Shown: piece after piece, positions 30,328-47,353 of the stretch
Layout: every line of letters starts with the position of its first letter
How positions within the stretch are numbered: position 1 is the first letter of the stretch
NCBI RefSeq assembly: GCF_015751895.1
Contig: NZ_JADOTZ010000001.1
Coordinates: 434,001 to 498,000 of the forward strand
Length of the DNA: 64,000 bases
From: Zhihengliuella flava
GTDB lineage: Bacteria > Actinomycetota > Actinomycetes > Actinomycetales > Micrococcaceae
Reading direction: 5' to 3'
The notes under the pieces: model-generated
The model's database searches: none
What the model was told of the DNA's origin: nothing
Seen by the model: only the letters and a program-made list of their open reading frames with translations
Position numbers and translations under genes: made by a program

Positions 30328-33300
30328 GTGCCAGATCAACCGCACCACCGGCTGACCGAAGAATTCGGCGGAAACGAATGGCTCGTTGATGAGCTATATC
30401 AGCAGTACCGCCGGGACAAGAACTCTGTCGATAAAAAGTGGTGGGACATCTTCGAGTCCTTCGAGGAATCCGGCAACGGTGCCAGCGCGTCGTCGGCGCC
30501 ACAGGCCGAGCCGGCAGCGAAGCCGGCCCCGACCCCCTCAGCCCAGAAGTCGCAGGACTCGGGCCAGTCCACTGAGCCGTCCTCCGCCACCCATGCCCGC
30601 GTCGTCGACACCACGGGCACTACCGCCGGCTCGTCCAGCGAGTCGTCCACGGGGTCCAGCAAGGAACGCCTCCCCGCCGACCCGTCCCCCGACAAGACCA
30701 AGCAAAAGTCCGCACCCAAGACGGCCCCGATCCCGGCCGAGCTGCCGAAATCGCAGGGTGAGGCGCCCACCGAGGAAGACGTGGTCAAGCCCCTGCGCGG
30801 GCCAGCCAAAGCCATCGCCACCAACATGGAAGCCTCCCTGACGGTTCCGACGGCCACCACTGTGCGCGCGGTGCCAGCCAAGGCACTCATTGACAACCGT
30901 GTCGTGATCAATAACCACCTCGCCCGCGCCCGCGGCGGCAAGGTGTCCTTCACGCACCTGATTGGCTTCGCCGTCGTTCGCGCGCTCAAGTTGTTCCCGT
31001 CCCAGAACGTGACATTTGACGACTCCAACGGCAAGCCTTCCGCTGTCCACCCGGCACACGTGAACTTCGGCATCGCCATCGACTTGCCGAAGCCGGATGG
31101 CTCGCGCATGCTGGCCGTGCCGAACATCAAGAAGGCCGAGACGCTCAACTTCTCGGACTACTGGAACGCCTACGAGGACCTGATCCGCCGGGCCCGCAAT
31201 AACAAGCTGACCGCTGACGACTACGCCAACACGACCGTCTCGTTGACGAACCCCGGTGGCATCGGCACGGTGCACTCCGTACCGCGCTTGTCCAAGGGCC
31301 AAGCCACGATCGTCGGCGTCGGGGCCCTCGAGTACCCGGCCGAGTACCGCGGCGCCAGTGAGAAGACCATCGCGCGCGCCGGCGTCGGCAAGATCATCAC
31401 GCTGACCTCCACGTATGACCACCGCGTCATTCAGGGCGCCGGTTCGGGCGAGTTCCTGCGCATCATCGAGAACCTGCTGCTCGGCGCAGACGGCTTCTAC
31501 GACGAGATCTTCGAGGCCCTGCGGATTCCTTATGAGCCCGTGCGGTGGGTCCGGGACAACCAAGTTGATGCCGACTTGGAAGTCAACAAGATCGCCCGGA
31601 TCCAGCAGCTGATTCACGCCTACCGTGTGCGCGGCCACCTGATGGCCGACACCAACCCGTTGGAGTACGTCCAGCGGCGTCACCCGGATCTCGACATTCA
31701 AACCTACGGCCTGACGCTGTGGGATTTGGATCGCGAGTGGGTGACGGGCGGATTCGGCGGCGATCAGCGCCTGCCGCTGCGAAAGATTCTGGGCGTTCTG
31801 CGTGACACGTACTGCCGGACGACCGGCATCGAGTACATGCATATTCAGGATCCCGAAGAGCGGGAGTGGTTCCAGGCGGAACTGGAACACGAATACTCCA
31901 AGCCCACGCGGGAAGAGCAGTTGCGCATTCTGGGCAAGCTCAATGCCGCCGAAGCCTTCGAGACCTTCTTGCAGACCAAGTTCGTCGGGCAGAAGCGCTT
32001 CTCGCTCGAGGGCGGGGAATCGCTGATCCCGCTGCTGGACGCCATCATTTCCGACGCCGCCGACGGCGGACTCGACGAGGTCGCCATCGGTATGGCTCAC
32101 CGCGGCCGTCTGAACGCGCTCACCAACATCGCTGGCAAGACCTATGCCCAGGTCTTCCGCGAGTTCGAGGGGACCCAGGACCCTCGCTCGGTTCAGGGCT
32201 CCGGTGACGTCAAGTATCACCTCGGCACCGAGGGAAGCTACGTCTCGGACCATGGCAACGAGACCAAGGTCTACTTGGCCGCCAACCCGTCGCACCTCGA
32301 GGCGGTCAACCCGGTCCTTGAGGGAATTACCCGCGCCAAGCAGGACCGCCTCGACCGTGGCAGCGATGGCTTCTCCATCCTGCCGATCTTGGTCCACGGC
32401 GACGCGGCGTTTGCGGGCCAGGGCGTCGTGGCTGAGACCCTCAACCTGTCGCAGCTGCGCGGCTACCGCACTGGCGGAACCGTGCACGTCATCGTCAACA
32501 ATCAGGTCGGCTTCACGACGGCACCGACGTCGTCCCGCTCCTCGGTCTACTCCACCGACGTCGCCAAGATGATTCAGGCTCCCGTGTTCCACGTCAACGG
32601 CGATGACCCTGAAGCCGTGGTGCGCGTGGCCCAGTTTGCGTTCAAGTACCGCCAGAAGTTCAACAAGGACGTCATCATCGACCTCGTGTGCTACCGCCGC
32701 CGCGGCCACAACGAGGGTGATGATCCGTCGATGACGCAGCCGATGATGTACAACCTCATCGAGGCCAAGCGCTCGACGCGCAAGCTGTACACCGAGGCGC
32801 TCGTCGGTCGCGGTGACATCACGCAAGAAGAGGCCGATCAGGCACTGCGGGACTATCAGGACCGGCTGGAGCGCGTTTTTGCGGAGACGCACGCCGCGCA
32901 GACGTCGCCGATCCCCGCGGTCAGCTCGGATGGCACCGTCAACGATCTGGAGCTGCCGAATGCTCAGGTGAGCGATGGCATCAACGCCCCCGCCACCACG
33001 GCGATCAGCGCAGAAACCCTCGCCCATATTGGCAGTGCGCACACGCAGATTCCGGAAAACTTCACGGTTCACCCGAAGCTCAAAGCACTGCTGGATCGCC
33101 GGGCCAAGATGTCGGCCGAGGGCGGTATCGACTGGGGCTTCGCCGAGATCGCGGCGTTCGGATCCCTCTCGATGGAGGGCGTCCCCGTTCGGCTGGCCGG
33201 CCAGGACTCCCGCCGCGGCACCTTCGTCCAGCGCCACGCCGTCTTCCACGACCGCAACACTGGCGATGAGTGGATGCCGCTGCAGCATCTTTCCGAGGAT

Positions 33301-34149
33301 CAGGCCAAGCTGTGGATCTACGACTCCCTCCTGAGCGAATACGCCGCAATGGGCTTCGAGTACGGTTACTCCGTCGAGCGTCCCGACGCGCTGGTGCTCT
33401 GGGAAGCGCAGTTCGGCGACTTCGTCAACGGCGCCCAGACGGTCATCGATGAGTTCATCTCGTCGGCGGAGCAGAAGTGGGGCCAAAGCTCCTCGCTCGT
33501 CCTCATGCTCCCGCATGGTTACGAGGGGCAGGGGCCAGATCACTCCTCGGCACGCATCGAGCGTTTCCTGCTGATGTGCGCCGAGAACAATATGGTGGTG
33601 GCCAACCCCACGACGGGCGCCAATCACTTCCACCTGCTGCGCCGACAGGCGTACTCGCGTCCACGCAAGCCGCTGGTGATCTTCACCCCGAAGCAGCTGC
33701 TGCGCCTCAAAGCCGCGGCCTCTTCGGTGGAGGACTTTACCCAGGGCACGTTCCGCTCGGTGATCGGCGATACGGCCGACCTGTCGGCTCAGGACGTCGA
33801 ACGCGTGGTCCTCGTCTCCGGTCGCCTCTACTACGATCTGGCCGCGGCACGGAAGAAGGCCGAAGACACCAAGACAGCGATCGTGCGCGTCGAGCAGTTG
33901 TACCCCCTGCCTGTCGAGGAGATTCAGTCTGAGCTAGCCAAGTACCCGAACGCCGACGTCGTCTGGGCTCAGGACGAGCCGGCCAATCAGGGCCCGTGGC
34001 CCTTCATTGGGCTGAACCTCGCCCCCGAGTTGGACCGGACGCTGCAGCTGGTCTCACGCACGGCCTCGGCCTCGACGGCCGCCGGTTCGCACAAGCGGCA
34101 CGATGCGGAGCAAGCCACCCTGCTCACGCAAATTTTCGACCGCGGATAA
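30328..34149 (+). CDS. kgd: Multifunctional 2-oxoglutarate decarboxylase/dehydrogenase E1-E2 fusion
   Basis: Actinobacterial KGD/OdhA, 1273 residues, the thiamine-diphosphate E1 of the 2-oxoglutarate dehydrogenase complex fused to an E2-type acyltransferase domain. Order: short E1 N-terminal helix (FGGNEWLVDELYQQYRRD), Ala/Ser/Pro-rich linker (about 50-150), acyltransferase domain (about 155-400, with TYDHRVIQGAGSGEFL in place of the classical DHRxxDG), then E1 (about 400-1273) with AHRGRLNALTNI and RGHNEGDDPSMTQP. It feeds succinyl-CoA to the TCA cycle together with separate E3 and the pyruvate-complex E2. GTG start with GGAAGAGG nine bases upstream. In mycobacteria and corynebacteria the E1 is inhibited by an FHA protein (GarA/OdhI), which is not in this window. 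Confidence 0.97.
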   Translation: MPDQPHHRLTEEFGGNEWLVDELYQQYRRDKNSVDKKWWDIFESFEESGNGASASSAPQAEPAAKPAPTPSAQKSQDSGQSTEPSSATHARVVDTTGTTAGSSSESSTGSSKERLPADPSPDKTKQKSAPKTAPIPAELPKSQGEAPTEEDVVKPLRGPAKAIATNMEASLTVPTATTVRAVPAKALIDNRVVINNHLARARGGKVSFTHLIGFAVVRALKLFPSQNVTFDDSNGKPSAVHPAHVNFGIAIDLPKPDGSRMLAVPNIKKAETLNFSDYWNAYEDLIRRARNNKLTADDYANTTVSLTNPGGIGTVHSVPRLSKGQATIVGVGALEYPAEYRGASEKTIARAGVGKIITLTSTYDHRVIQGAGSGEFLRIIENLLLGADGFYDEIFEALRIPYEPVRWVRDNQVDADLEVNKIARIQQLIHAYRVRGHLMADTNPLEYVQRRHPDLDIQTYGLTLWDLDREWVTGGFGGDQRLPLRKILGVLRDTYCRTTGIEYMHIQDPEEREWFQAELEHEYSKPTREEQLRILGKLNAAEAFETFLQTKFVGQKRFSLEGGESLIPLLDAIISDAADGGLDEVAIGMAHRGRLNALTNIAGKTYAQVFREFEGTQDPRSVQGSGDVKYHLGTEGSYVSDHGNETKVYLAANPSHLEAVNPVLEGITRAKQDRLDRGSDGFSILPILVHGDAAFAGQGVVAETLNLSQLRGYRTGGTVHVIVNNQVGFTTAPTSSRSSVYSTDVAKMIQAPVFHVNGDDPEAVVRVAQFAFKYRQKFNKDVIIDLVCYRRRGHNEGDDPSMTQPMMYNLIEAKRSTRKLYTEALVGRGDITQEEADQALRDYQDRLERVFAETHAAQTSPIPAVSSDGTVNDLELPNAQVSDGINAPATTAISAETLAHIGSAHTQIPENFTVHPKLKALLDRRAKMSAEGGIDWGFAEIAAFGSLSMEGVPVRLAGQDSRRGTFVQRHAVFHDRNTGDEWMPLQHLSEDQAKLWIYDSLLSEYAAMGFEYGYSVERPDALVLWEAQFGDFVNGAQTVIDEFISSAEQKWGQSSSLVLMLPHGYEGQGPDHSSARIERFLLMCAENNMVVANPTTGANHFHLLRRQAYSRPRKPLVIFTPKQLLRLKAAASSVEDFTQGTFRSVIGDTADLSAQDVERVVLVSGRLYYDLAAARKKAEDTKTAIVRVEQLYPLPVEEIQSELAKYPNADVVWAQDEPANQGPWPFIGLNLAPELDRTLQLVSRTASASTAAGSHKRHDAEQATLLTQIFDRG

Positions 34150-35106: not shown

Positions 35107-35373
35107 CTAGCGGTGCCCACTCTCGACTCGGATTTCACTGATGCGCATCATGATGCGCGATTTTAGCGTGTGCGGGGCTTGCTCCGTGCAGGATCGCTTG
35201 ACCACGGAACGAATGATGCATTCCAAGTCGTACTCCTGCGCGCACTCCGTGCAGTGCTCGAGGTGGCGCTTGACGTCATTGAGGTCGTCGACAGACAAAG
35301 CGCCGTCGAGGTATTCGTAGAGCCGGACGATCCGCGAATCATCGCAGTCGCCCAGAGACTGACAGTCGCCCAT
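35107..35373 (-). CDS. rsrA: Thiol-redox anti-sigma factor (RsrA/RshA)
   Basis: 88-residue zinc-containing anti-sigma factor (ZAS) of the mycothiol system. The zinc/redox motif is H37-x3-C41-x2-C44 (RHLEHCTECAQ) with C10 as the likely fourth ligand and redox partner. Under disulfide stress it releases SigH/SigR. Its ATG directly follows the sigH stop codon (TAA then ATG), ensuring matched synthesis. Confidence 0.95.
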   Translation of the reverse strand: MGDCQSLGDCDDSRIVRLYEYLDGALSVDDLNDVKRHLEHCTECAQEYDLECIIRSVVKRSCTEQAPHTLKSRIMMRISEIRVESGHR

Positions 35374-36018
35374 TTACTTCTTCTCCTGCTTCTTCGCCGC
35401 ACCGCGTGCGGTCCCCTGATCTCCGATACCGCGGTCTGCTGCGTAGTCGGCGAGTAGCTCACGCAACTGTTTGCGACCGCGGTGCAGACGTGACATGACA
35501 GTGCCCATCGGGATGCCAAGGATCTCTGCGACTTCCTTATAGGCATACCCCTCCACGTCGGTGAAGTAGACGGCCAACCGAAATTCCTCAGGGATGGTTG
35601 CCAAGGCGGTTTTCACGTCTGAATCCGGCAGGTGATCCAACGCTTCAGCCTCCGCAGACCGCAATCCCGTCGAGGTGTGCTCGGCGGCTTCGGCCATCTG
35701 CCAGTCTTCAACCGTGTCCGTGCTGGCACGCAGGGGTTCTCTTTGCCGCTTGCGGTAGAGATTGATGTACGTATTGGTCAGGATGCGGTACAGCCACGCC
35801 TTGAGATTGGTTCCAGGCTTGTACTGGTGGAACGCTGAATACGCCTTGGCGTACGCCTCTTGGACCAAGTCCTCGGCGTCGCTAGGATTACGCGCCATCC
35901 GCAGGGCCGCCGAGTACAGCTGATCGACGTACTGCAAGGCGTCCGCCTCGAAGCGCGACCGGCGCTCTTCGGTGGTCTCTTGCGCGGCCGTGTCCGTGCT
36001 GGTCTGTGAATCGGTCAT
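35374..36018 (-). CDS. sigH: ECF RNA polymerase sigma factor SigH/SigR
   Basis: 214-residue group-4 sigma factor that directs the disulfide, oxidative and heat stress regulon of actinobacteria. Region 2 spans [30 protein letters not shown]-type sequence (about residues 35-65) and region 4 holds the [27 protein letters not shown] helix-turn-helix (about 165-190). ATG at 36018 is chosen as the start of the conserved part; an upstream ATG 19 codons away is possible, and in Streptomyces and mycobacteria longer stress-stable isoforms exist. The promoter 36117-36144 matches the SigH consensus, so autoregulation is expected. RsrA is encoded immediately after it. Confidence 0.95.
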
Positions 36019-36116
36019 CACGCGACAGTCTACGCGCGTCGGCCTCTCCATGACGGTCGTGGATGATCCAGCCACCGAGCGCCTCCATATCTCTGACTGT
36101 TCCTTGCAGGTCGTAT

Positions 36117-36144
36117 AACGAACCCGGCCGCCATGCCTATTCCC
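36117..36144 (-). promoter_or_regulatory. SigH-type autoregulatory promoter
   Basis: The minus strand reads GGGAATA, 17 bp, CGTT, an excellent match to the SigH/SigR consensus (GGGAAYA, 16-17 bp, CGTT). It lies about 100 bp before sigH, as expected for the known positive feedback loop of this sigma factor. Confidence 0.85.
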
Positions 36145-44679: not shown

Positions 44680-44786
44680 GTGACACGTTTGGAAATTCTA
44701 GCTGCGGTCGGCCCCGGTGTCAGGTCACACCACACGCGGCGGTCTGCGGCCGCGCGCTACCGAGACGGCCGGGAAGGGCAACAAAA

Positions 44787-44815
44787 AACCCGCCCAAGCA
44801 GTGCTTGGGCGGGTT
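44787..44815 (-). terminator. Rho-independent terminator of ssrA
   Basis: On the minus strand the stem AACCCGCCCAAGC / GCTTGGGCGGGTT with a 3-base loop is followed by TTTTTT, 6 bp after the tmRNA 3' end. Textbook form. Confidence 0.95.
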
Positions 44816-44820
44816 CGTCG

Positions 44821-45193
44821 TGGAGATGGCGGGAATTGAACCCGCGTCCGATGAGGTGTTGCCTGGTCTTCTCCGGGCGCAGTTTGCTTTGAGGTTTCTC
44901 TGCCCCTCAGGCCGTCACGCAAACAAGCGGCCTGTTCCTCCGGGCACAGTCATCTAAAAGTCCCGAACGTACCGATGACGAATACGTTCAGCAGTGGCTA
45001 TCTAAACGACGCCAGATTCAGAGGCGATAGCAACCCCTGGCTGACGGACTGTCTGGCTGCTTAGGCAGCGAGAGCGAAGTCAGTGCGCTTAGATTCGGCA
45101 CTTATTGGTTTGCAGAGAGCGTTTACGAGATAACTCTGCATCCTCGGCCCGCTTCTCCTGACGCGACTCACATCGTCGAAACCGATCATCCCC
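44821..45193 (-). ncRNA. ssrA: Transfer-messenger RNA
   Basis: 373-nt tmRNA that rescues stalled ribosomes. The 5' end GGGGATG pairs with the 3' CATCTCC (one G-U), and the T-arm GCGGGTTCAATTCCCGC is intact. The tag frame lies at 45061-45099 (minus): resume codon GCC, then ESKRTDFALAA and TAA, giving AESKRTDFALAA, a typical actinobacterial degradation tag. CCA is not encoded. SmpB is encoded just upstream on the same strand. A SigH-type promoter overlaps the smpB stop. Confidence 0.97.
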
Positions 45194-45262
45194 GTATGCG
45201 GTTGTCAATGGCGGTATCCCGCCTCAAACCACCGCAGCGCTAACTGCGGAAGTACCTAGTCT

Positions 45263-45290
45263 AACGCATCCGCCGGGTGGTTTCATTCCC
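45263..45290 (-). promoter_or_regulatory. SigH-type promoter for ssrA
   Basis: Minus strand reads GGGAATG, 17 bp, CGTT, nearly identical in form to the sigH promoter at 36117-36144. The -35 element ends at the smpB stop codon, and the transcript would begin about 65 bases before mature tmRNA. In Streptomyces ssrA is a known SigR target. A TAGACT box inside the same stretch could also be used by the housekeeping sigma factor. Confidence 0.75.
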
Positions 45291-45781
45291 TACGCCGTGT
45301 AACGGTTTCTCTCGCGCATCGCACGCAGCGCTTCGCGGTTGTCCTGCTTTTCCCGCAGCGTCTGCCGCTTATCAAACTCGCGCTTACCCCGCGCCACCGC
45401 AATTTCGACCTTGGCCCTGCCATCTTTGAAGTACAACTGCAGCGGAACGATGGTGTTGCCGGCCTCCTGCAGCTTGCGTTGGATCTTGGTCAATTCCTGA
45501 CGATGCAGGAGGAGCTTACGACGCCGTCGGGCCGCATGGTTGGTCCACGATCCGTTGAGGTACTCGGGGATGTAGATCTGCTCAATGAAGAGCTCGTCCC
45601 CATAGAACTGGGCAAATCCGTCGACGAGCGACGCTTTGCCCTCGCGGAGCGACTTGACCTCGGTCCCGGTGAGGACCATGCCTGCCTCGAATTGCTCTAG
45701 CAACGCGAAGTCGTGCTTGGCCTTCCGGTTGGTCGCCACAACGTGATTTGCCGGATCCTTGGCACTGGTCTTTTTTGCCAT
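45290..45781 (-). CDS. smpB: SsrA-binding protein SmpB
   Basis: 163-residue tmRNA partner that docks the RNA in the A site of stalled ribosomes. Signatures are NRKAKHDFALLEQFEAGMVL, GTEVKSLREGKASLVDGFAQ and the C-terminal KREFDKRQTLREKQDNREA helix region. ATG at 45781 with a strong GAGGGAGG ribosome-binding site is preferred over an ATG ten codons upstream. Next gene on the strand is ssrA. Confidence 0.97.
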   Translation of the reverse strand: MAKKTSAKDPANHVVATNRKAKHDFALLEQFEAGMVLTGTEVKSLREGKASLVDGFAQFYGDELFIEQIYIPEYLNGSWTNHAARRRRKLLLHRQELTKIQRKLQEAGNTIVPLQLYFKDGRAKVEIAVARGKREFDKRQTLREKQDNREALRAMRERNRYTA

Positions 45782-45856
45782 GACAGCCTCCCTCTCAGAC
45801 TCGATGCGCACGCATGACAGAACGTCTATGCTACGCGACGCTCGCCGCCTGGTGGT

Positions 45857-47353
45857 TCAGAGCAAGCCCAGTGGGTTGACGGCCTGCCCGTTGAGAATCG
45901 TCTCGAAATGCAGGTGGCAGCCGGTCGAATTGCCCGTTGTGCCGACATAACCAATGACCTGGCCCCGCGAAACACTTTGGCCGTTGGAGACCGCGAATCC
46001 GGACATGTGATGGTAGTTCGTCGCCAAGGCGTTGCCGTTGATCACCCCGTGGCTCACCGTGACCTTGTTGCCAGAGCTTCCGCCCCAGCCCGCAAACCAG
46101 ACCTCGCCGCTCGCGGCCGCGTAGATCGGCCGTCCGCAGGCGCCGCCGAACCCGTAATCGATGCCAGCGTGGAGGTACCCGCCGGCACCCCCGTAATCGA
46201 TCGTGCCGGAGGGAGTCGGGCGCCATCCAAATCCTGAGGTGATGTAGGCACCCGCCGCAGCGGGGTTCTGCAGCCCCCAGCTGCTGACCGAGCTATCTTG
46301 CGAGGAAACCTTGTCCTCCGCCTCGCGCGCTTCCTCTTCCTTGCGCTCGGCTTCCTGTTCCTTGCGCTCAGCTTCCTCCTGCGCAGCCTGATCCGCCCGC
46401 GCCTGCTCGGCGGCCTCACGAGCCTTGCGCGCTTCCTCGGCCTTTCGACGCGCCTCCTCGCGCTCACGTCGCTCCTGCTCGGCGATCTCCTGCTTGAGCT
46501 GCTCCTGGCGAGCAGCGATGTCGGAGATCACCTGCTCCTGCTCCTGCTCAAAGGCGCTGATCTGGTCCTGGATCTCCGGCCGTTTGGCCTCGAGCTCAGC
46601 ACTGAGCTCCTCGGCTCCGGCAATCAGGCCATCCACTTCTTGCTTTTTGGCGGCTGCTTCATCACGTGCCGCCTGTTCCCGATCCAGCGCGTCCTCGGCT
46701 TCGGCCTTGAGGCTCCGGATCTCTTCCTCGACCGCTTCCAGTCGGACCTGTGCATTGCGCTCTGTCGCGGCCTTTTGGCTCAATTCCGTCAGAACGGCAT
46801 TCTGACTGCGCAGGGCCTGTCCTGCGAGATCGAGGCCATCGGCGAGGTTGCCCTTCTCCCCCGCATTGAGCATCAGGCTCAGGTTGTTATCAACGCCCCC
46901 GCGCTTGTAGGCCTGCGTCGCAATCTGGCCGATGAGCTCGCGAGTTTCATCGATCTTGGCCTGATCTTGCTCCAGCTCGCTCGTGAGGTCGTCACGCGTC
47001 TGCTCGGCATCGGAGACCCGCTGTGTCAGCGTGGCGACCTCTTGAGCCGCGATATCGACGCGCCCTTCAGCCTCTGCGAGAGCTTGACGGGCCCCGGGCA
47101 ATTGCGACTGATAATCCTGCAGTTTGGCCGCGGTTTCCTGAATGTCCTTATCCAGGAACTCCAAGTCGGTCTCGAGTCCGTTGATCTTTCCGTCCAGCTG
47201 GTCTTTTTGGTCCGACTGCTCTTGGATCTGATTCTTGAGCTCGTCGATCTCATCCGCCGTCGCTCCGGCGGCTCCCAACCCAACAGCGAGAACTGCTGCT
47301 AGCGCGCCGGAGAGGACGGCGCGTGAAAGGGTGCAGCTACGTTGCTCTGCCAA
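45857..47353 (-). CDS. Secreted coiled-coil M23 peptidase (FtsEX partner)
   Basis: 498-residue wall hydrolase. A signal peptide (ending ATA-DEID) is followed by a long coiled coil (about 35-345, with Glu/Gln/Ala/Arg heptads and an Arg/Glu/Ala-rich stretch), a Ser-rich linker and a C-terminal LytM/M23 domain with zinc-site motifs HAGIDYGFGG and HLHFETI. The architecture and position after ftsX match the EnvC/CwlO-like hydrolases activated by FtsEX at the septum. The start appears to be TTG at 47353 with an AGGAAGGAA ribosome-binding site. Catalytic residues look intact. Confidence 0.9.
   Translation of the reverse strand: MAEQRSCTLSRAVLSGALAAVLAVGLGAAGATADEIDELKNQIQEQSDQKDQLDGKINGLETDLEFLDKDIQETAAKLQDYQSQLPGARQALAEAEGRVDIAAQEVATLTQRVSDAEQTRDDLTSELEQDQAKIDETRELIGQIATQAYKRGGVDNNLSLMLNAGEKGNLADGLDLAGQALRSQNAVLTELSQKAATERNAQVRLEAVEEEIRSLKAEAEDALDREQAARDEAAAKKQEVDGLIAGAEELSAELEAKRPEIQDQISAFEQEQEQVISDIAARQEQLKQEIAEQERREREEARRKAEEARKAREAAEQARADQAAQEEAERKEQEAERKEEEAREAEDKVSSQDSSVSSWGLQNPAAAGAYITSGFGWRPTPSGTIDYGGAGGYLHAGIDYGFGGACGRPIYAAASGEVWFAGWGGSSGNKVTVSHGVINGNALATNYHHMSGFAVSNGQSVSRGQVIGYVGTTGNSTGCHLHFETILNGQAVNPLGLL

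Follow-up and report, generated by a model that had tools for sequence, protein, structure and literature searches.

In Streptomyces coelicolor, the ECF sigma factor SigR reads GGAAT-N18-19-GTT promoters and tmRNA belongs to its regulon; tmRNA is a named regulon member in Streptomyces in the discussion of the same paper, whose reference list includes Kallifidas 2010 (PMC4921905, available in part). The SigH protein of Corynebacterium glutamicum is likewise an ECF sigma factor with an anti-sigma factor gene and has the same GGAAT-N18-19-GTT consensus (PMC10012870, available in part). It differs as a precedent in that ssrA, tmRNA and smpB are absent from the main text of that paper.

A second group of described systems concerns the transcription of untranslated RNA. 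The nut sites (boxB-boxA-boxC, acting with NusA, NusB and NusE) stand in a leader upstream of an untranslated structured RNA (PMC6614801 and PMC12781872, both available in part). According to the accessible text of PMC6614801, NusB/E is the binder of boxA and an S1-KH1-KH2 fragment of Mycobacterium tuberculosis NusA binds boxC-like RNA. In the accessible text of PMC12781872 the nut sites are placed just downstream of the rrnA start, where NusA boosts read-through of untranslated RNA, and Bacillus subtilis work is cited in which the paused complexes on which NusA acts showed no sequence consensus. Nus-type RNA signals also occur beyond rRNA, at suhB and other loci, whereas the tested cases described in the part of PMC5725501 available to us lie upstream of protein genes and the boxA survey in it left non-coding RNAs out of consideration. 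A search by title and the beginning of the abstract, with subscription journals mostly outside its range, found no paper describing a signal of the nut or boxA type for ssrA.

The locus studied here lies in a 64-kb stretch of the Zhihengliuella flava genome (the window), in which smpB is followed on the minus strand by ssrA and a sigH-like gene is also found. The following features were assigned.

35107-35373, minus strand: anti-sigma-like protein of 88 amino acids with an HxxxCxxC motif (HLEHCTEC), from the ORF and Pfam zf-HC2 (1.1e-7)
35374-36075, minus strand: sigH-like ECF sigma factor (Pfam Sigma70_r2 9.8e-19, Sigma70_r4_2 5.2e-14)
36117-36144, minus strand: further copy of GGGAAT-N18-CGTT, placed 41 bp before the start of sigH in an autoregulation-like arrangement
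44786-44816, minus strand: ssrA intrinsic terminator, a 14-pair stem followed by a T-run
44820-45193, minus strand: ssrA (tmRNA) with tag AESKRTDFALAA (ARAGORN; Rfam RF00023, 153.1 bits)
45195-45208, minus strand: rrn-leader-like element TTGACAACCGCATA, a proposed nut/NusA-type site, from sequence and conservation
45210-45223, minus strand: leader hairpin 2 (GGCGG...CCGCC) in the centroid fold, directly 5' of the conserved element
45233-45248, minus strand: leader hairpin 1 (CGCAG...CTGCG), seen in the centroid structure when the leader RNA is folded (z -2.8)
45250-45257, minus strand: zone in which both sigma factors are predicted to start transcription, judged by the customary spacing of -10 and +1
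45258-45263, minus strand: sigma-A-type -10 TAGACT, from sequence, overlapping CGTT by one T
45263-45266, minus strand: SigH-type -10 CGTT, from sequence, kept in relatives
45285-45290, minus strand: SigH-type -35 GGGAAT, from sequence, its initial G being the final base of the smpB TAG
45290-45781, minus strand: smpB (Pfam SmpB 4.4e-56); the ORF tool called 45290-45811, up to GTG 45811

We read the smpB start off the sequence as ATG 45781. The 88-amino-acid zinc-finger ORF lies immediately 3' of sigH and we take it to encode an RshA/RsrA-like anti-sigma factor. Elsewhere in the window two very long ORFs (30328-34149 on the plus strand, 1273 amino acids; 30538-33633 on the minus strand, 1031 amino acids) overlap on opposite strands and it is likely that one alone is a gene.

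The original prediction held that a SigH-type promoter on the minus strand faces ssrA, and a motif of this type was found there: GGGAAT-N18-CGTT runs from 45290 to 45263 in the direction of ssrA, and ARAGORN and Rfam identified both the RF00023 structure and the encoded tag of a tmRNA. The distance from GGAAT to GTT is 19 and thus inside the published 18-19 range. The sigH gene that the prediction had placed in the same window is an ECF sigma factor by Pfam and has the same motif 41 bp upstream. The site in front of ssrA has the published consensus GGAAT-N18-19-GTT (PMC10012870, available in part), and tmRNA is placed in the Streptomyces SigR regulon in PMC4921905 (available in part).

The strict motif GGGAAT-N18-CGTT occurred twice in the 64-kb window compared with 0.11 expected, and two or more matches were reached in 1/100 shuffles of the window. 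The core motif GGAAY-N17..19-GTT was not enriched in the window (11 matches vs 7.5 expected) and counts of the core motif alone were therefore rejected as evidence, so that the case depends on conservation and on the longer form of the motif. Across the whole 2.9-Mb genome, GGGAAYN{17,20}CGTT gave 41 matches, compared with 17 for the reversed control. Downstream ORFs were read for 30 of the 41 matches, and among these 30 loci were sites upstream of sigH, of a methionine sulfoxide reductase gene (Pfam PMSR) and of a pyridine nucleotide-disulphide oxidoreductase gene that we take to be trxB-type (thioredoxin reductase). The spacers between GGGAAT and CGTT ahead of these sigH, msrA-type and thioredoxin-reductase-type genes were 17-18. 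By sequence these three look like classical SigH targets, and many of the remaining genome matches may be due to chance.

Conservation of the promoter was examined in sets of relatives that after removal of duplicates comprised 108 distinct family/order, 98 class/phylum and 63 named ssrA loci, the class/phylum set being an uneven sample drawn from among the matches listed and including one locus (L288) that was kept although its tmRNA start is probably false. Loci that had no match to the tmRNA 5'-end pattern were left unscored (28/143 and 40/139 loci, and 14/80 named loci); many of these are smpB loci that have no ssrA close by, or tmRNAs whose 5' end is of a different kind. All genomes searched contained smpB (59/59, source genome included), a same-strand tmRNA was nearby in 32/61 smpB loci, and 16 of these 32 carried GGAAN-N17..20-GTT between smpB and the tmRNA.

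The comparison across Micrococcaceae ssrA loci that had been proposed with the original prediction favored it: a SigH-type motif preceded ssrA in 5/5 genus genomes, and GGAAT-N17..19-GTT was present within the 200 nt upstream of ssrA in 49/108 family/order regions, as opposed to a mean of 0.5 and a maximum of 2 in 20 shuffles. For the class/phylum regions among the matches listed, the corresponding number was 34/98 (shuffle mean 0.25, maximum 1). These shuffle comparisons overstate the significance because related genomes are not independent. Control by sigma-H is not universal, given that GGAAT was missing from the nearest 140 nt in 45/108 family/order regions. Among the named loci, the motif preceded tmRNA in 27/39 Streptomyces loci in which a tmRNA was found, a further similarity to the Streptomyces system.

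The position of the motif relative to smpB bears on another claim, namely that the -35 ends at the smpB TAG and that this embedding constrains the codons at the end of smpB. The -35 in fact begins at the stop codon, since the G at 45290 is the third base of TAG (45292-45290) and the whole of the core GGAAT follows the stop, so that the overlap is a single base outside the core. A SigH-only promoter with a functional embedding of this kind would fit the direct succession of TAG and GGAAT in 4/5 genus genomes and the same junction in one Streptomyces (L449). It is contradicted by the fifth genus genome (L035), where the motif lies 112 nt past a TGA stop while the distance from the end of the -10 to the tmRNA is 67-69 nt as in the other four, and by the named loci, where L449 is the only one of 42 placed motifs to abut the stop. 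The promoter position thus tracks ssrA rather than smpB, which indicates that the junction with the stop codon is incidental; the embedding was rejected as a functional feature and we regard this explanation as very improbable.

The part of the original prediction that concerns a SigH promoter for ssrA stood with respect to the motif and its conservation, but it had missed a sigma-A-type -10. The hexamer TAGACT (45263-45258; the sequence of this region is CGTTAGACT) has its first T in common with the end of CGTT and is of the TAnnnT type, at the distance of a -10 from the predicted start site. Of the 49 family/order regions with a SigH motif, 36 have a TAnnnT whose first base is the last T of GTT, whereas no other offset between -20 and +29 was found in more than 4 of the same 49 regions. 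The Streptomyces arrangement differs from the fusion of the sigma-A -10 with CGTT in Zhihengliuella flava: in the named set, made up largely of Streptomyces, an additional 8 nt usually separate the motif from the first TAnnnT downstream (26/37 regions with the motif). No TTGACA/TATAAT-type pair was found within 44750-45900. Actinobacterial promoters often have a weak -35 box. From the sequence, sigma-H is probably not the sole sigma factor for ssrA. This is in line with the assignment of S. coelicolor ssrA to HrdB through ChIP-seq in the accessible part of PMC6344877. A scan of the strand that carries smpB and ssrA revealed nothing resembling a terminator between the two genes, and read-through from smpB is therefore possible; in C. 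diphtheriae the tmRNA is reported within the same operon as smpB (PMC5784534, available in part).

If TAGACT did the work by itself, as a plain sigma-A promoter, then GGGAAT would be a chance or relic SigH look-alike. This would account for the 11/108 family/order regions in which GGAAT is spaced to GnTAnnnT but GTT is missing, for several others in which a TAnnnT -10 was seen by eye next to a degraded or absent GGAAT/GTT, and for the lack of enrichment of the core motif in the window. It is hard to reconcile with the 49/108 regions that carry the motif against 0.5 in shuffles, with motifs of the same type ahead of the sigH, msrA-type and trxB-type genes and with the Streptomyces precedent (PMC4921905, available in part), and we consider it unlikely. 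We infer instead, with support from the published consensus, the conservation near tmRNA, the presence of sigH and its anti-sigma gene in the window with the same motif and the Streptomyces regulon, that a SigH/SigR-type promoter drives ssrA.

When the upstream regions were aligned at the mature tmRNA 5' end, a conserved stretch became apparent right before GGGG, which reads approximately TTTGRTAACTSAAYA in the family. The Zhihengliuella flava leader ends in TTGACAACCGCATA, part of an element that resembles a block common to rRNA leaders, TTGAGAACTCAAYAG. The ssrA element agrees with TTGAGAACTCAAYAG at 10/15 positions, as do 6.8% of family/order leaders after shuffling; three other genus members also score 10/15 and the fifth scores 11. 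Because this score taken alone is unremarkable, the case for the element is made by its repeated position and conservation. A match of at least 10/15 to TTGAGAACTCAAYAG within 80 nt was present in 93/108 family/order leaders (about 7.3 expected from the shuffle rate of 6.8%), in 61/63 named leaders (about 3.8 expected, shuffle rate 6.0%) and, among the matches listed, in 28/98 class/phylum leaders (about 5.8 expected, shuffle rate 5.9%). In class family f22, six of the seven leaders scored 8-9 of 15 and the seventh (L361) scored 11. The shorter pattern AACTSMAYA with at most one mismatch was found in 68/108 family/order leaders (3.6 expected), 42/63 named leaders (2.8 expected) and 57/87 class-search leaders among the matches listed (2.5 expected). 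As a control we used the regions upstream of rnpB (RNase P RNA), for which 28/30 loci were scored, the other two having short flanks; 0/28 reached 10/15 to TTGAGAACTCAAYAG (shuffle rate 2.1%) and 0/28 contained AACTSMAYA with at most one mismatch. The sequence GAACUCAAUAG, which we take to be the RNA 11-mer of the NusA co-crystal, was matched at 8/11 or better in 35/108 family/order leaders compared with 10.7 expected, a modest enrichment.

The rRNA side of the comparison was characterized at 31 rrn loci. The 16S start was recognisable in 29 of them, and TTGAGAAC was present in the leader of 22/29; these 22 leaders, selected by TTGAGAAC, comprised 14 distinct sequences, each of them TTGAGAACTCAAYAGYGTG. 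Among the other seven, TTGATATCTCAATAG stood in the three whose flanks were complete, and the flanks of four were short (34-156 nt). The rrn block is therefore not invariant. The pattern TTGNNAACNNNATA had a single match in the 64-kb window, at the ssrA element. In the whole genome TTGANAACNNNATA, a pattern chosen after the ssrA site had been seen, gave four matches, which were the three rrn leaders and ssrA, and the reversed control gave none. The looser pattern TTGNNAACTNNAYA had six matches in this genome, three of them in the rrn leaders and the other three some 366 nt past 16S, and missed the ssrA site, which has AACC. The latter three matches belong to a second element, TTGGGAACTGCATA, that occurs in all three rrn operons (G000:C1:542068, 1729548 and 2168222), presumably in the 16S-23S spacer.

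Neither a boxA 5' half nor a GYGTG tail was found around 45193-45215 of the window. The identification of the leader element with boxA as such was weakened by the fact that the part common to the ssrA and rrn leaders consists of what we take to be the boxA 3' end and the AACTCAAYA block next to it. The ssrA leaders resemble the rrn nut sites in the shared block TTGAnAACtnaayA and in a 5' hairpin in about half of those tested, and differ from them in that the transcript is tmRNA, the Zhihengliuella flava site has no boxA 5' half or GYGTG tail, the element adjoins the mature RNA and binding is putative. Residues 105-321 (KH region) of the Zhihengliuella flava NusA align closely with the M. tuberculosis NusA chains 2asb/2atw. 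The proposal of a NusA/boxC-type site builds on statements in the accessible text of PMC6614801 and PMC12781872 and on GAACUCAAUAG taken as the RNA of the NusA co-crystal.

The location of the element at the very end of the leader allows a different interpretation, in which TTTGRTAACTSAAYA is a context for RNase P or other pre-tmRNA processing and its rrn likeness reflects convergence on unstructured A-rich RNA. The 15-mer started at -15 in 85 of the 93 family/order matches and thus reached the mature 5' end, and the element is mostly unpaired (mean P(unpaired) of 0.70 compared with 0.35 for the rest of the leader in 39 leaders folded without the tmRNA), both as expected for a processing context. 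Against this, in 20 leaders, some of them from close relatives, a copy of the element was displaced and started 27-72 nt upstream of the mature tmRNA end, and the rrn-like GYGTG tail was kept in 11 of these 20, with up to 17/19 positions matching. Examples with the tail are Curtobacterium (L395, L418, L426; L418 reads CTTGGCAACTCAACAGCGTG), Microbacteriaceae (L394), Leucobacter (L430), Mycetocola (L438) and Labedella (L446). Two of the 22 rows (L043, L131) were left out as coincidental weak matches upstream of a -15 element. Displaced copies that retain the GYGTG tail argue against a pure processing signal, as does the control with rnpB, another structured RNA that has no such element upstream. 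A concentration at rrn operons was also seen in six genomes with placed rrn operons, where 34 of the 37 matches to TTGNNAACTNNAYA were at rrn, one was at ssrA and two were elsewhere (placed by hand from 16S and tmRNA coordinates in 6/26 genomes: G000, G003, G005, G015, G018 and G023). We regard a processing context as a substantial possibility, short of an even chance.

In the centroid fold of the Zhihengliuella flava leader the element is unpaired and follows two hairpins, whereas in the minimum-energy fold three of its bases pair with the 5' end of the leader. Among 77 family/order leaders whose element starts at -15, a hairpin directly 5' of it was present in 38, compared with a mean of 12.0 and a maximum of 15 in shuffles. 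RNAalifold gave no consensus structure for 13 related leaders, in which the stems are possibly misaligned.

As a whole, these data seem best explained by a two-sigma ssrA promoter combined with a nut/NusA-type element in the leader, an arrangement predicted from sequence to which we give about an even chance of being right. Sigma-A would read the TAGACT -10 and provide a basal supply of ssrA RNA, and sigma-H would read GGGAAT/CGTT superimposed on the same -10 and boost the supply upon thiol stress sensed by the sigma-H/anti-sigma pair. The two start sites would fall within a few bases of each other, and the pre-tmRNA would carry about 55-65 nt of leader. By analogy with rRNA, the mostly unpaired element, which is related to a block that occurs in rRNA leaders and also 3' of 16S, would most likely load NusA and its partners on RNA polymerase, and NusA loaded on the nascent pre-tmRNA could make the polymerase processive and help the tmRNA ends to fold together, after which the leader would be removed by RNase P. 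The broader proposal that tmRNA is transcribed like an rRNA operon in Micrococcaceae and much of the actinobacterial class, with a nut-type site for NusA (perhaps also NusB/S10) that the leader shares with rrn leaders and spacers, with one antitermination/folding machine for the rescue RNA and rRNA and with stress initiation by sigma-H at the same promoter, is put forward tentatively, and we would sooner expect it to fail than to hold.

If the model is true, sigma-H would link the supply of the ribosome-rescue RNA to thiol stress, and Nus factors would at the same time link it to the machinery that transcribes rRNA. A further non-coding RNA would then be known to use Nus-type RNA signals, and there would be a testable reason for the conservation of the tmRNA leader. 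The sigma-H part alone would extend a known member of the Streptomyces regulon to Micrococcaceae.

Additional copies were noted in several family genomes. One of them (G015, loci L042 and L091) has two smpB-ssrA units about 11 kb apart, with no SigH motif between smpB and the tmRNA in either unit; the SmpB match of the second is 73% identical and spans query residues 113-171 only. A second full-length tmRNA was present in four others (G103, G063, G082 and G035; loci L177-L180), and in the second copy of G103 the rrn-like element is displaced from the mature end. Finally, a contig labelled as an Acidobacteria MAG (JABBNV010000067.1, L389) encodes an SmpB 75% identical to the Micrococcaceae protein studied here. 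The contig seems identical to one in a genome of the same family (G032), and the Acidobacteria title is probably wrong.
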